A stretch of DNA of 64,000 nt. Source: Loktanella salsilacus. GTDB lineage: Bacteria; Pseudomonadota; Alphaproteobacteria; Rhodobacterales; Rhodobacteraceae. Numbering within the stretch: the first letter of the stretch is position 1; each line of letters starts with the position of its first letter. Below the pieces are notes generated by a model, which was given only the letters and a program-made list of their open reading frames with translations, was not told where the DNA came from and did no database searches. The stretch spans positions 1-64,000 of the forward strand of contig NZ_FOTF01000016.1 of assembly GCF_900114485.1 (NCBI RefSeq), read 5' to 3'. Made by a program: the position numbers and the translations under genes. Of this stretch, positions 3,838-59,330 are shown one piece after another.

Positions 3838-3838
3838 T

Positions 3839-3896
3839 ATCAGGTTTTCGTTGAAAACCTGATGCCTCCGGCGGGAGTTTTTCCGGCAAGGTGAAT
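3839..3896 (+). repeat. Dispersed palindromic repeat, copy 1
   Basis: An 11-bp perfect stem (ATCAGGTTTTC / GAAAACCTGAT, loop GTT) is followed by CCTCCGGCGGGAG and the tail TTTTTCCGGCAAGGTGAA. It starts 1 bp after the lipase stop and lies between convergent genes (lipase-like and ubiK), fitting a terminator-like role. Confidence 0.75.
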
Positions 3897-3961
3897 GGGG
3901 GCGTGCGGGTCTGCACAAAAGGCCATGCGCGGGTGGCGCGGCCTTTTGCGGCGTTTTATAT

Positions 3962-15961: not shown

Positions 15962-15977
15962 TTGGCAGTTGGCCCAC

Positions 15978-16041
15978 TTCATCTGGCCAAATAAACTCCC
16001 GCGCGGCGCGCTGAGGTTTTTCGCGACGCGGAAAACCTCAC
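15978..16041 (-). repeat. Dispersed palindromic repeat, copy 2
   Basis: Read on the minus strand: a TGAGGTTTTC...GAAAAACCTCA hairpin, then GCGCGCCGCGCGGGAG and the tail TTTATTTGGCCAGATGAA. It lies 16 bp after the purK stop, in the purK-comM gap. Confidence 0.75.
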
Positions 16042-17632: not shown

Positions 17633-17657
17633 GGCAGGCAGGCGTGCGGGAGGTGTT

Positions 17658-17714
17658 CCGAATTTTCGGATGAAAATTCGGGGCCTCCGGCGGGAGTTTA
17701 TTTGGCAAGGTGAA
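17658..17714 (+). repeat. Dispersed palindromic repeat, copy 3
   Basis: CCGAATTTTC and GAAAATTCGG form a 10-bp stem with loop GGAT, followed by CCTCCGGCGGGAG and the tail TTTATTTGGCAAGGTGAA. It fills the gap between the convergent comM and GST genes. Confidence 0.78.
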
Positions 17715-17720
17715 GCTGGA

Positions 17721-22773: not shown

Positions 22774-22823
22774 ATTCGGCTGCGCCGAATGACATAGAAG
22801 GGAGTATTTTTGGCAAGATGAAA
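22774..22823 (+). repeat. Dispersed palindromic repeat, copy 4 (overlaps the dut start)
   Basis: ATTCGGC-TGC-GCCGAAT hairpin, then GGGAG and the tail TATTTTTGGCAAGATGAA. The ATG within this tail (22818) is the likely dut start codon, so the repeat extends into the gene. Confidence 0.72.
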
Positions 22824-23306
22824 CCGGAAATGCGTGTCGCGCTGGCTTATGTTGCGGGAGCTGATGAGGCATTGCCACTGCCCAGCTATCAGAGCGCCGG
22901 GGCGGCGGGTGCGGATGTTTGTGCAAATTTGGCTGCGGATGATCGGGCGTTGGGCGTGACGCTGGCCCCCGGTGCGCGGGCCTTGATCCCGACAGGGTTG
23001 CGCCTTGCGATCCCGCAGGGGTTCGAGGTGCAGGTCCGCGCCCGTTCCGGCCTTGCGTTAAAGCACGGGATTGCGCTGGTGAATGCGCCGGGCACAATCG
23101 ATAGCGATTATCGTGGCCCGCTGGGGGTGCTTGTCGTGAACTTAGGACAAGAAGCGTTCACTGTGACGCACGGAATGCGGATTGCGCAGCTGGTCGTGGC
23201 CCCTGTGGTGCAGGCTGATTTTGCGCTGGGTGATCTGGACAATACGGCGCGGGGTGCCGGCGGGTTTGGATCAACTGGGTCTGGAACAGATGGGGGCGCA
23301 TCATGA
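22818..23306 (+). CDS. dut: dUTP diphosphatase Dut
   Basis: A 162-residue trimeric dUTPase that hydrolyses dUTP to dUMP. The five motifs are visible: [38 protein letters not shown] and the C-terminal [11 protein letters not shown] chose ATG 22818 because it gives the normal N-terminus. An ATG at 22749, overlapping the coaBC stop (ATGA), would add 23 residues encoded largely by repeat copy 4. Its stop overlaps the next start. Confidence 0.92.
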
Positions 23307-35908: not shown

Positions 35909-35914
35909 TTTGCA

Positions 35915-35972
35915 TTCACCTTGCCAGATAAACTCCGGGGGAGGGCGCAGCCCGGGGGCAGCGCCCCCTCAG
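35915..35972 (-). repeat. Dispersed palindromic repeat, copy 7 (hybrid form)
   Basis: On the minus strand: GGGGGCGCTGCCCCC hairpin, then CTCCCCCGGAG and the tail TTTATCTGGCAAGGTGAA. It joins the C-rich hairpin form to the TTTATTTGGCAAGATGAA tail form and lies between convergent genes. Confidence 0.75.
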
Positions 35973-38755: not shown

Positions 38756-39073
38756 ATGACAAACTTCAAATCCTCCCTGATCGTCGCCGCTCTGGTTTCT
38801 GCATTCGGCGTGACCGCTGCTTCCGCCGCTGACTTCCAGCCCACCAAAAGCTTCAACGACCTGTCCGCTGCTGGCGTCGCCGCAACCGAAGCAAACATTG
38901 CAGCCCTGGGCGTGAGCAACCGCGCTGGTAACGTGCTGACAACCGGCGAGCTGACCGCGATCCAGCAGATCATTCTGGACCAGTCGAACGAAGCATCGAA
39001 AGCCAAGCGCGTGAACCTGATCGTGAACGGCGAGTCCGCAGGCTACGGCCCCGGCTACTCCGTCACTTACTAA
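38756..39073 (+). CDS. Small secreted protein, 105 residues (paralogue A)
   Basis: A protein with a signal peptide ending at ASAAD (about residue 25) and a mature part rich in Ala/Asn. Residues 63-92 align without gaps, at the same residue numbers, with 63-93 of the protein encoded at 39327 (shared Q70, I72, D75, S77, K82, A83, R85, V90, N91), so the two genes are paralogues. The C-terminal tail is Gly/Tyr-rich. Function unknown. The leader carries a stable stem-loop. Confidence 0.75.
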   Translation: MTNFKSSLIVAALVSAFGVTAASAADFQPTKSFNDLSAAGVAATEANIAALGVSNRAGNVLTTGELTAIQQIILDQSNEASKAKRVNLIVNGESAGYGPGYSVTY

Positions 39074-39077
39074 TCGC
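39008..39077 (+). repeat. 70-bp direct repeat, left copy (3' end of paralogue A)
   Basis: This stretch from codon Arg85 through the TAA stop plus four bases is identical to 39155-39224, base for base by reading. The offset is 147 bp. Confidence 0.9.
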
Positions 39078-39154
39078 TTCTTAGCGACCTTCCTCCCTCC
39101 GCTCCTCCCAGCGGGAAATACACAGGGCGCTGCCCTGAGAATATAAAACGAAAC

Positions 39155-39224
39155 CGCGTGAACCTGATCGTGAACGGCGAGTCCGCAGGCTACGGCCCCG
39201 GCTACTCCGTCACTTACTAATCGC
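39155..39224 (+). pseudogene. Fossil duplicate of the 3' end of paralogue A
   Basis: A perfect second copy of 39008-39077 that encodes only the last 21 residues and the stop, without start or signal peptide. The 77-bp spacer contains no gene. It looks like the residue of a tandem duplication of the secreted gene, or of copy-choice repair. Confidence 0.8.
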
Positions 39225-42806: not shown

Positions 42807-42819
42807 CGCCGCATCCCCG

Positions 42820-42856
42820 TTTTCATCTGGCCACCTGAACTCCCGCCGGAGGCGCC
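42820..42856 (-). repeat. Dispersed palindromic repeat, copy 8
   Basis: On the minus strand GGCGCCTCCGGCGGGAG is followed by TTCAGGTGGCCAGATGAA. It lies in the ATPase-permease gap inside the operon. Confidence 0.65.
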
Positions 42857-42887
42857 AAAGCCTTCCCCCAGCACAGCGCCGCCTTTA

Positions 42888-42924
42888 TTCATCATCTTGC
42901 CGAAAATACTCGCCCGCGGCAGGC
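42888..42924 (-). repeat. Dispersed palindromic repeat, copy 9
   Basis: On the minus strand CCTGCCGCGGGCGAG is followed by TATTTTCGGCAAGATGAT. It pairs with copy 8 about 40 bp away, just after the ATPase stop. Confidence 0.68.
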
Positions 42925-42929
42925 GTTCC

Positions 42930-44453: not shown

Positions 44454-45190
44454 CCCGCCGCCTCAATCTGCCTAGCTGCATTTCGGCCCAGCATCGCCAT
44501 GGCGACGCCGATGGCAATGGCCTGAGGATGTTTTCCAAGCCGCGTGTCGCCAATGGGACAGGCAATGCGCGCAATGGTTGCAGGGCTATGCCCAAGGGCC
44601 GCCAGCCGCCCGCGAAACCGCGCCCATTTCGTCGCAGACCCGATTAACCCGCAACTGGCAAAGGGACGCGACAGGACCGCGTGGCACAGCTCCAGATCGA
44701 TCGCATGGCTATAGGTCAGGATCAGGTGATGCGCATCCGCTGGCGCATGCGCCGCTGCCCGCGCCGGATCAGCGGCGACAAGCACTGCGGCCTTTGCATC
44801 CTGTGGAAACCGATCTGCGCCTGTATCAACCCAAGTGATGTCCCACTCCGGCAGCGGCGCCATTACATCGACCAGTGCGCGGCCCACATGCCCCGCACCG
44901 TAAATCCAAAGCGGCGCACCCTTCGGTGCCTCCAAAGCATCCGCTTGCGCGAGTTCCAGCGTCACCGATCCGCCGCAGCATTGGCCTAGCGCCGGCCCCA
45001 GCGGCAAGGTCAAAACCTGCGCCGCGCGGCCCTGCGTGATCATGCGGCGGGCAGCCGCCATGGCTTCCCACTCCAGCGCGCCGCCACCAATGGTGCCTGC
45101 GGTGCGATCCGCCCAAACCATCATCTGCGTGCCCGCCTCGCGCGGCACCGACCCGGCGGTGCGCGCGACTGTGACCTTAATCCCGCTCAT
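44450..45190 (-). CDS. xdhC: Xanthine dehydrogenase accessory protein XdhC
   Basis: A 246-residue protein that binds molybdenum cofactor and inserts it, with its sulfur, into XdhB. The XdhC N-domain (TAGSVPREAGTQM near 10-22, GGGALEWEA, then QCCGG) and C-terminal Rossmann part (YGAGHVGRALV, then GLIGS) are both present. The ATG at 45190 overlaps the xdhB stop; the N-terminus is some 20 residues shorter than many homologues. Confidence 0.9.
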   Translation of the reverse strand: MSGIKVTVARTAGSVPREAGTQMMVWADRTAGTIGGGALEWEAMAAARRMITQGRAAQVLTLPLGPALGQCCGGSVTLELAQADALEAPKGAPLWIYGAGHVGRALVDVMAPLPEWDITWVDTGADRFPQDAKAAVLVAADPARAAAHAPADAHHLILTYSHAIDLELCHAVLSRPFASCGLIGSATKWARFRGRLAALGHSPATIARIACPIGDTRLGKHPQAIAIGVAMAMLGRNAARQIEAAG

Positions 45191-47625
45191 CCGCGTGCGC
45201 GCTTTACAGCAGCCAAGATCGCCTCTGGCGTCGCAGGGGCCTGCAAATCTGGCCAAACAGGCCCGCAAGCCGCCACCGCATCGCCAAGCGCGGCAAAGGC
45301 AGAAATGCCGTGCATAAACGGCGGCTCGCCCACGGCTTTCGAGCGATAGATCGTCGCCGCCGGATTGGGCTGATCCCACAGCGCGACGTTGAACACATCC
45401 GGCCGGTCGCCGCAGGCGGGGATCTTGTAGGTGCTTGGCGCATGGGTCCGCAACCGGCCCTTGTCGTCCCAGATCAGCTCTTCCGTCGTCAGCCAGCCTG
45501 CGCCCTGCACATAGCCGCCCTCGATCTGTCCCAGATCCAGCGCGGGGTTCAGCGAGTCCCCCGCATCATGCAAAATATCGCAGCGCAGAATCCGGTTTTC
45601 CCCGGTCAGCGTGTCAATCACGACCTCTGTCACTGCCGCCCCTTGGGCAAAGTAAAAGAATGGCCGCCCCTGACCTTTGACCCGGTCCCATGCCAAATCC
45701 GGCGTTTTGTAAAAGCCCGTCGCGCTTAAGGATACACGCGCTTGATAGGCCAACATCGCCGCCTCGGCAAAGCTCATGTCCTTGCCTCCCACACGCACGC
45801 GGCCTTGGGCGAATTGCACATCCGCGACAGCGGTCTGATGCGCATCTGCTAAATGTTCAGCAATCCGCGCGCGAATAATATCGCAGGCGTTCGCGACAGC
45901 CATTCCGTTCAGGTCGGCCCCACTCGACGCCGCCGTCGCCGACGTATTTGGCACCTTGCCTGTATCCGTCGCCGTGATCTTGACCTGTGCGACATCAATC
46001 CCGAACCGCGCCGCCGCGACTTGCGCAACCTTCTGGAACAAACCCTGTCCCATCTCGGTCCCGCCATGGTTCAGATGAACCGAGCCGTCCTGATACACAT
46101 GCACCAAGGCGCCGGCCTGATTAAGATGCGTCAGCGTAAAGGAAACCCCGAACTTCACCGGACTAAACCCAATGCCGCGCTTCAGCAGGGGATTGGCGGC
46201 ATTCCAATCCGCAATCGCCGCCTTGCGCGCGTGGTAATCACTCGTCGCCAGCAGGCTCTCGGTCATTGCATCCAGAATGAAATCCGTGACTGCCATGCCA
46301 TAAGGCGTGGTGTTCACCGCCGCCTCTGGCACTGCAACCCGGTCATCGGCCACAGTCTGCGCCCCGCGCGACGTTAAATCCGCTTCGCTCTCTGTTTTGG
46401 AAATATCCTCGGGGGGGGGCGCAGGCCGGGGGGCAGACAGCCCCCCTGCAACGTGGCCGCCTGCACCGTCAGTCGCGGCATTCATCGGCGCATAGTAATT
46501 CACGCGCCGCAACGCGACCGGGTCCATACCCAGCACATGGGCCGCGTGATCCATCACCCGCTCAATCCCCAGCACACCCTGCGGGCCGCCAAAGCCGCGG
46601 AACGCCGTGGCGCTTTGCGTGTGGGTCTTCAGCCGATGCGACGTGATGCGGCAGGCGTCCAGCAGATAGGCGTTGTCGCTATGCAGCATCGCCCGGTCGG
46701 CGACGGGCAGGGACAGGTCCATCGCCCAGCCGCAGCGCGTATACTGGGTAAAATCCACGCCCAGCAGCCGCCCGCCCTCATCAAAGCCGGCGTCATAATC
46801 AATGCGGAAATCATGACGCTTGCCGGTGACGATCATGTCGTCATCCCGGTCATAGCGCATCTTGCATGGCCGCCCGGTTGCGCGGGCCGCCACGGCGCAG
46901 GCGACGGCCAGCGCATTGCCCTGGCTTTCCTTGCCGCCAAATCCGCCGCCCATGCGCCGCACCTCGACCCGCACGGCGTGCATCGGCACGCCAAGCGCCT
47001 CGGCCACTTTGTGCTGGATTTCCGTGGGATGCTGGGTGCTGGAATGGACGGTCATGTCGCCGCCTTCTTGCGGCAGGGCAAGGGCGGCTTGGCCTTCCAG
47101 ATAGAAATGCTCTTGCCCGCCCATATCGATCCGGCCCTTGATCCGGTGCGCGGCGCCGGACAATGCGGTACCGACGTCGCCCTTGGTCCAGATGCGGGGT
47201 CCATCCTCGAACCGGCTGTTCGCTGCCAGCGCGTCCTCGACTGTTAGGATCGGGGTCTCGGCTGCAATCTTGATCTGACCAAGCCGCGCCGCATGGCGGG
47301 CGTTCAGGTGGCTGTCGGCGACAACGGCAAAGATCGGCTGCCCGGCGTAATGCACCCGGCCCACGGCCAACAAAGGCTCGTCATGATTGCTGGGCGATAC
47401 GTCATTGGCAAAGGGCAGATCATCCGCCGTCAGCACCATGACGACGCCCGGCGCGGCGCGCACCGCGTCCAGATCAACCGAGGTGATGGCGCCGCACGCG
47501 ACCTCGCTTAGGCCAAAGGCAAGGTGCAGCGTACCTGCGGGCACCGGCAGATCGTCGATATACCGCGCGGTGCCCGTCACATGCAGGGCGGCGCTGTCGT
47601 GGGGCAGGGGGCTTGCGACGCTCAT
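45187..47625 (-). CDS. xdhB: Xanthine dehydrogenase molybdopterin-binding subunit XdhB with repeat-derived insert
   Basis: An 812-residue subunit that oxidises hypoxanthine and xanthine at a molybdenum site. Typical parts are present: [19 protein letters not shown] and [12 protein letters not shown]. The family is usually near 780 residues. Here residues about 383-436, between NYYAPMNAA and NTTPYGM, form an extra Pro/Ser/Glu-rich linker, of which about 393-413 are encoded by repeat copy 10. A run of nine G in this copy makes the frame prone to slippage. It overlaps xdhA and xdhC by 4 bp each. Confidence 0.95.
46387..46450 (-). repeat. Dispersed palindromic repeat, copy 10 (in frame inside xdhB)
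   Basis: On the minus strand GGGGGGCTGTCTGCCCCCC is followed by a GC-rich bridge and then CCCCCGAGG and ATATTTCCAAAACAGAGAG, matching the intergenic copies at 54336 and 49191. It is translated as part of a linker and contains a nine-base homopolymer at 46411-46419. Confidence 0.75.
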
Positions 47626-48974: not shown

Positions 48975-49090
48975 GTGAAAACCTGCCGCCTTACCAGGTC
49001 AATCGGGTCACGGCACGACGTCGATGCGGCGTAGAGATCGGCCCCCGTTTGGCACAGCAAAGCCGCTTGGCGTCTGATTTGCAAGAGCAG

Positions 49091-49148
49091 AGGGGGCGCT
49101 GCCCCTCGGCGGCGGCGTCCCCCGGGATATTTTTTACGAGAAGAAGGG
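49091..49148 (+). repeat. Dispersed palindromic repeat, copy 11
   Basis: GGGGGCGCTGCCCC hairpin, GC-rich bridge, CCCCCGGG and the tail ATATTTTTTACGAGAAGAAG. It lies in the xdhA upstream gap and is followed at 49191 by copy 12. The rest of 48975-49250 shows no gene. Confidence 0.75.
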
Positions 49149-49190
49149 GGAGGTCTGCCTGATTTATAGGCATGTTTTTTGGGCGGGGGT

Positions 49191-49247
49191 GAGGGGGCTC
49201 TGCCCCCGGCTGCGCCTCCCCCGAGGTATTTGGGACCAGAAGAAGGG
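49191..49247 (+). repeat. Dispersed palindromic repeat, copy 12
   Basis: GGGGGCTCTGCCCCC hairpin, bridge, CCCCCGAGG and the tail TATTTGGGACCAGAAGAAG. It abuts the stop of the SRPBCC gene and pairs with copy 11. Confidence 0.8.
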
Positions 49248-49250
49248 CGG

Positions 49251-54335: not shown

Positions 54336-54394
54336 CAGGGGGCGCTGCCCCCCGGCTTCGCCTTCCCCCCGAGGTATTTTTGACCAGAAGAAGA
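54336..54394 (+). repeat. Dispersed palindromic repeat, copy 13
   Basis: GGGGGCGCTGCCCCCC hairpin, bridge, CCCCCCGAGG and the tail TATTTTTGACCAGAAGAAG. It lies in the convergent gap between the lipoprotein and slyX genes. Confidence 0.82.
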
Positions 54395-54410
54395 GTGATG
54401 TGTGTCGGTA

Positions 54411-54471
54411 GAGGGGGCGCTGCCCCCGCCGGTGGCGCGGCCCCCCAGGGATTTTAGGACGATAAGAAGAG
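54411..54471 (+). repeat. Dispersed palindromic repeat, copy 14
   Basis: GGGGGCGCTGCCCCC hairpin, bridge, CCCCCCAGGG and the tail ATTTTAGGACGATAAGAAG. It is paired with copy 13, 16 bp away. Confidence 0.78.
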
Positions 54472-54478
54472 GACGGCC

Positions 54479-59249: not shown

Positions 59250-59308
59250 GAGGGGGCGCTGCCCCCGCCGCTGCGCGGCCCCCCGAGATATTTTTGACCA
59301 GAAGAAGG
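59250..59308 (+). repeat. Dispersed palindromic repeat, copy 15
   Basis: GGGGGCGCTGCCCCC hairpin, bridge, CCCCCCGAGA and the tail TATTTTTGACCAGAAGAAG. It fills the gap between the convergent GH25 and acyl-CoA ligase genes. Confidence 0.82.
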
Positions 59309-59330
59309 TGAGGGGCTGCGGGTTTTGCGG

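Follow-up and report, generated by a model that had tools for sequence, protein, structure and literature searches.

What supplies the additional residues in the xanthine dehydrogenase of Loktanella salsilacus, and how might they have got there? In the window analysed here, a stretch of 64,000 nucleotides from a genome of 4.13 Mb in 76 contigs, the xdhB gene (45187-47625, minus strand) encodes the 812-residue molybdopterin-binding subunit of the enzyme, as identified from its open reading frame and its match to TIGR02965 (E = 0, 1188 bits against a cut-off of 849.5). The linker between its MoCoBD_1 (residues 146-377) and MoCoBD_2 (residues 459-742) domains is 61 residues long, compared with 7-15 residues in short-linker orthologues. 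We found that residues 394-414 are the in-frame translation of a copy of a repeat that occupies 46384-46446 of the minus strand. The initial annotation had placed such a repeat on this strand at 46387-46450, in frame between the blocks NYYAPM and TTPYGM, and our analysis confirms the strand, the frame and the position between the two blocks. It had also described the protein as about 35 residues longer than usual; the protein is indeed longer, but the figure is approximate since the repeat accounts for 21 residues, the linker has the 61 residues given above, and the protein exceeds the 758-position TIGR02965 model by 54.

In an AlphaFold model built with 24 sequences (mean pLDDT 73.6), residues 383-435 fall below 50, while the flanking ten-residue blocks stand at about 90 on the left and at 74 climbing to 93 on the right, so that the linker has the appearance of a disordered loop in this model. 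The long linker is common to the 8 other same-genus genomes searched (9/9 in all) and to many other genera. No repeat was found in the xdhA gene of this genome (47622-48974, minus strand).

A repeat copy within xdhB

Read on the minus strand, the xdhB copy belongs to the long form of the repeat. It begins with stem-loop 1 (GGGGGGCTGTCTGCCCCCC, 46428-46446), which is evident in the sequence and forms a hairpin in the predicted fold, continues with a C-rich part made up of the variable second-hairpin region, here degenerate (stem of 1), and a C-run (46411-46427), and ends with the conserved 3' part GAGGATATTT and the purine-rich tail CCAAAACAGAGAGCGAA (46384-46410). An nhmmer model of 45 intergenic copies from the same genome, all outside the window, matched 46395-46444 on the minus strand (E = 9.2e-7) and gave no match in the reversed window. 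The covariance model R1 placed the copy third among the scored matches in the genome (E = 1.3e-16); this model leans to xdhA and xdhB copies because 29 of the 38 copies from which it was built come from these genes in other species. When the same codons were recoded synonymously, 1 of 2000 recodings reached the observed repeat score. The tail of the xdhB copy is identical at 25 of 28 positions to that of an intergenic copy of the same tail subtype in its own genome (C41:78462), and at 16-24 of 28 positions to those of seven sister-species xdhB copies, the eighth sister being without an anchor.

It is near certain that the XdhB insert derives from the intergenic repeat. A low-complexity, G+C-rich sequence might invite the suspicion that a G+C-rich linker resembles a G+C-rich repeat by chance, which we regard as vanishingly unlikely given that reversed controls returned no match at E ≤ 0.01 and given the 25 identical positions shared with an own-genome copy. 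Elsewhere in the window, a weak repeat-like match to the own-genome model lies at 22801-22825 on the plus strand (E = 0.015).

The repeat between genes

The long form of the repeat spans about 46-72 bases and two hairpins. Its first hairpin (GGGGGC...GCCCCC) is followed by a second that is variable yet palindromic, then by CCCCCGAGG-TATTT and a tail like GACCAGAAGAAG, whereas the short form has an AT-rich hairpin, GCCTCCGGCGGGAG-TATTT and a tail similar to that of the long form. Among 120 intergenic copies the variable part occurs in 91 different sequences with a mean stem of 4.58, as against 2.42 when shuffled. No Rfam family matched the window at the gathering score.

All 11 further copies examined in the window are intergenic. 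Long-form copies lie at 35911-35970 (minus strand) and, on the plus strand, at 49090-49149, 49191-49248, 54338-54396, 54411-54472 and 59250-59310. Short-form copies, with the AT-rich hairpin and GCCTCCGGCGGGAG, lie at 3838-3899 and 17652-17716 on the plus strand and at 15970-16036, 42812-42858 and 42884-42925 on the minus strand, the last directly after the stop codon of an ABC ATPase gene. In relatives of other genera, 12 short-form copies follow a gene downstream of xdh at what appears to be a similar place (for instance in loci L039, L050, L059, L060, L068, L079, L083 and L085, near +8560 to +8920), as though this site between genes were likewise retained or entered anew.

Our early strict DNA pattern gave two matches in the genome, and profile models were used in its place. 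With gene calls made by a codon-usage script, we determined the context of 57 copies in this genome, 45 of them strong matches and 12 in the window; 56 are intergenic, and the sole genic one is that in xdhB. The intergenic copies include 24 between convergent genes and 1 between divergent genes, and those in tandem-gene spacers are oriented sense in 15 cases and antisense in 16; a further strong match (C19:48666) is also intergenic and lies between convergent genes. The sense to antisense ratios in tandem spacers of other genomes are 10:1 (Rhodosalinus), 8:9, 4:1 and 2:1. A terminator role is disfavoured because both orientations occur in tandem spacers, although Rhodosalinus is sense-biased.

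At E ≤ 1, R1 found at least 144 matches in this genome (150 of 1571 candidates scored), and 8 other genomes contained from 4 to 102 matches at E ≤ 1e-9. At E ≤ 1e-6, 3 of 6 further members of the family matched and none of 12 genomes of other families did. For plasmid records, an incomplete gene table listed no gene at 49 of 55 and at 6 of 9 best places; the remaining places were annotated as 'hypothetical protein' (3), one ABC permease and three DUF1839 (short matches), or carried no annotation (2).

As a separate observation in the window, a gene for a small protein has its 3' end in duplicate (39005-39077 and 39152-39224, 73 bases, 99%), and a GGGCGCTGCCC hairpin sits between the duplicates.

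Recurrence in the linkers of XdhB and XdhA

We then consider how widely the xdh genes of the Rhodobacteraceae share the insert, using loci that are the best search matches rather than a random sample. The repeat was detected (E ≤ 0.01) in the XdhB linker of 67 of 128 distinct proteins, 46 with the long form and 21 with the short form, and 61 were without it. The initial annotation had named as evidence against its reading a linker present in all XdhB orthologues with no resemblance to the repeat, and this is not what the family displays. The repeat was also found in the linker between the 2Fe-2S and FAD domains of XdhA in 29 of 120 proteins, always reversed (for instance in L074, L102, L108 and L110, at about +3090 in 10-kb loci); our first expression for XdhA linkers gave 12 and a widened one gave 123. 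The finding is wider than the initial annotation, and takes in sharing within the genus, many other genera and reversed xdhA insertions.

At the level of DNA, 139 xdh loci held 68 copies in xdhB, all sense, and 29 in xdhA, all antisense, together with 23 intergenic copies and 4 in loci where no gene was called (E ≤ 0.01), and no copy was found within any other script-called gene. Before duplicates were removed, six copies lay in uncalled loci, five of which were second copies of counted loci. A model for which five genomes supplied 123 copies, all intergenic, matched 47 xdhB, 28 xdhA and 14 other copies, and matched none in reversed sequence.

Rhodobacter capsulatus DSM 1710, from which the repeat DNA was read, has a clear copy in xdhA (E = 4.7e-7) and a decayed one in xdhB (E = 0.004). 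The chain sequences of the crystallised strain contain the corresponding segment in XdhA (1JRO and 2W3R, with FTLAQLSSGVRGQTAP in 2W3R), and the XdhB chain sequence in the PDB contains RGGLSAPPSPPEPIATKK. On the evidence of these sequences, Xdh enzymes carry in-frame pieces of a selfish-looking repeat.

The xdhB copies use a single phase in 59 of the 60 that could be anchored, and the exception (L082) reflects a shifted anchor, its codons being read as in the others. Since strand and phase are constant in xdhB, one old insertion followed by conversion is possible there. Such an account would have an ancestor of the family acquire a single insertion in its xdhB linker, which was then inherited, matched to the repeats of each genome by gene conversion and lost many times. 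It would also fit the linker's presence in all nine same-genus genomes searched and the resemblance of xdhB copies to own-genome copies described below. Several features of the linkers sit poorly with it, however. The left offsets vary (0, 5 and 8-9 residues in 20 short-form XdhB copies), one XdhB linker site houses both short and long forms, and the xdhA copies are read in three phases (19, 3 and 2 copies, with 5 lacking an anchor). The use of three phases speaks for what would be several insertions in xdhA.

Presence of the repeat is also scattered nearly as in shuffled data. It requires at least 35 changes over 128 XdhB proteins (a mean of 42.6 and a minimum of 35 in 200 shuffles) and at least 23 over 120 for xdhA (shuffled mean 26.0, lowest 21), counts that rest on a one-gene FastTree of XdhB without the linker and on a detection threshold, so that decayed copies are scored absent, and in which losses weigh like gains. 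On balance, the single ancient insertion strikes us as a possible but rather doubtful history for the XdhB linker.

Sequence likeness beyond the encoded peptide

To what extent is the likeness to the repeat a property of the DNA rather than of the encoded peptide? We scored xdhB copies against a weight matrix of 148 non-coding copies and recoded each synonymously 2000 times with the codon usage of its own gene. Of 68 copies, 8 were unanchored or unreadable, and the observed score of the remaining 60 was reached by no recoding in 33 copies, by at most 20 in 22, by at most 100 in 3 and by more than 100 in 2. In all, 55 of 60 copies had no more than 20 recodings scoring as well, the others being L041, L044, L051, L082 and L092. 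With a scoring set that still included five duplicates of genic copies and an unclassified one, the result was 56 of 60 (33, 23, 2 and 2). The repeat likeness of the xdhB copies lies in the DNA, beyond the peptide.

The copies also resemble the repeats found elsewhere in the same genome. In 25 genomes, each having one or more copies besides that in xdhB, the xdhB tail (12 positions, best of three shifts) had an identity of 0.730 to other copies of its own genome, compared with 0.575 to copies of other genomes and 0.590 to other xdhB copies, and none of 20,000 permutations reached 0.730. In Rhodosalinus sediminis, the xdhA copy agrees with an intergenic copy of the same genome at 68 of 70 bases and the xdhB copy at 64 of 69 (1 gap), whereas among the xdhB linkers of other species the best gives 55 of 62 with 7 gaps.

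Some role of the hairpins inside xdhAB as RNA or DNA is possible. The specific proposal that they act in the xdh mRNA, through attenuation, processing or translation pausing, with the nucleotide sequence itself under selection, could draw on the nucleotide-level match in the recoding test and on the second stem, which is palindromic in 29 coding xdhB copies (mean 3.86 versus 2.32 when shuffled). We nevertheless consider this proposal improbable, as the repeat is sense in xdhB and always reversed in xdhA, is divided 15 to 16 between the two orientations in the tandem spacers of this genome, and is missing from 61 of 128 XdhB proteins.

Probable insertion into tolerant linkers

The explanation we favour, and hold to be likely, is that a non-autonomous double-hairpin repeat of the Rhodobacteraceae has been recurrently inserted and/or converted into tolerant Xdh linkers. 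We infer that the repeat is a transposing 'selfish' element. Its home would normally be the 3' ends of genes, from which copies would insert into the linkers between domains of XdhB and XdhA, and rarely of BchB and CobN, and/or genic copies would be overwritten by gene conversion. With a linker that has the look of a disordered loop, the enzyme may tolerate some 20 extra residues at this place, and copies disrupting the reading frame would be removed by selection. The insert would probably be neutral to slightly costly, with no gain of function needed. Among 128 intergenic copies, the phase used in xdhB is open in 115, the most of any frame, and the other five frames are each open in 72-113; copies may persist because each of the six frames is open in most of them and the linker appears disordered. 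Against this explanation count the lack of any observed transposase, target duplication or movement, the constant strand and phase in xdhB, the fact that XdhB presence is somewhat less scattered than in shuffles (35 versus 42.6), and the 5 of 60 xdhB copies for which more than 20 recodings score as well.

A stronger form of this explanation would have a still-mobile element that invades these two Xdh linkers again and again throughout the family, reversed in XdhA and forward in XdhB, with genic copies continually rewritten from the repeats of their own genome. We find this quite conceivable, if short of probable. If it were true, xanthine dehydrogenase would record the activity of the repeat at the level of protein.

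Copies in other proteins

The initial annotation had called for a search for repeat-encoded linkers in other proteins, and besides XdhA these were found in BchB and CobN, in one genome each. In BchB of Rhodosalinus, one in-frame copy lies between the nitrogenase-like and PCP_red domains (L261:1203-1268), and in CobN of genome G010 there is one in-frame copy (L334:1801-1866) across which the NF008973 model aligns. Genic copies were sought in 61 genomes with a peptide profile (A4) in the XdhB frame only, and 20 candidates with long open frames were examined among the matches listed. Two of these were genic, XdhB of G081 and CobN of G010, and three (L346, L328 and L349) lay near a gene start or upstream. 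Fifteen of the 20 were rejected as genic copies, having no Pfam match and looking like spurious frames. L295, at the start of a nitrite/sulphite reductase open reading frame, was left uncounted because the true start codon is probably later.

The copies in BchB and CobN use the XdhB frame, which was the sole frame searched in the 61 genomes. This shared frame, along with the few aromatic residues in the peptide, might be taken to mean that the peptide is selected as a functional linker and that the DNA likeness is a by-product. We think this highly improbable given the synonymous recoding test, the 61 of 128 XdhB proteins that do without the repeat and the other frames used by XdhA.

Comparison with known repeat systems

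Protein-coding palindromic repeats have reportedly been described in Wolbachia, by Ogata in 2005. The best-described ones are those of Rickettsia. These RPEs are palindromes of 105-146 bp fused in frame to many proteins, as presented in the accessible parts of PMC2229807 and PMC10969869. The initial annotation had drawn a parallel to them, which the copies in XdhA, BchB and CobN bear out. Compared by description, both are palindromic repeats found between as well as inside protein genes, and both stand in frame in several unrelated conserved proteins (here XdhB, XdhA, BchB and CobN). RPEs are tolerated in the protein product (the same parts of PMC2229807 and PMC10969869), as the present repeat may be. 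They differ in build, in that RPEs, of 105-146 bp (PMC2229807), have a long stem-loop and terminal inverted repeats, whereas the present repeat has about 46-72 bases and two hairpins with a variable second stem. Unlike RPEs, the Rhodobacteraceae repeat is overwhelmingly intergenic (1 genic copy of 57 here), recurs in the same two Xdh linkers and tracks the repeat population of its own genome.

REP and REPIN elements, which are moved by the transposase RAYT (Y1_Tnp), resemble the repeat as many-copy short palindromic extragenic repeats near gene ends. An origin of this kind is disfavoured because Y1_Tnp was absent from all 15 genomes tested (0/1 and 0/14), with controls matched in 5 of the 14. 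In the accessible part of the text of PMC3733652, none of six Rhodobacteraceae genus names searched for occurs. ERIC, Correia and Coxiella QMITE1 are MITEs, some of them fused in frame (accessible parts of PMC2229807 and PMC10969869), and small repeats of other kinds have been reported as in-frame fusions in enterobacteria and Neisseria (accessible part of PMC2229807); the likeness to MITEs rests on non-autonomy, hairpin formation and occasional in-frame fusion. As the initial annotation had supposed for this group, the open-access literature, to which the search was largely confined, yielded no description of the repeat or of linkers of this kind in Rhodobacteraceae, most subscription papers lying outside it.

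Linker variability

Across the Rhodobacteraceae the repeat turns up at two recurring positions in an enzyme whose structures have been solved, and it does so in genera with strains in culture; the cost, mobility and conversion of the insertions can therefore be tested. It also accounts for the highly variable linkers of XdhA and XdhB, and alignments of Rhodobacteraceae linkers may record the history of the repeat rather than protein homology. Long XdhB linkers that are free of the repeat have common blocks of their own, one DLASRGA-like (L039, L042 and L086) and a second GTGRRFGGAHSP-like (L035, L040 and L048), and both blocks also adjoin the repeat in the XdhB of some species.
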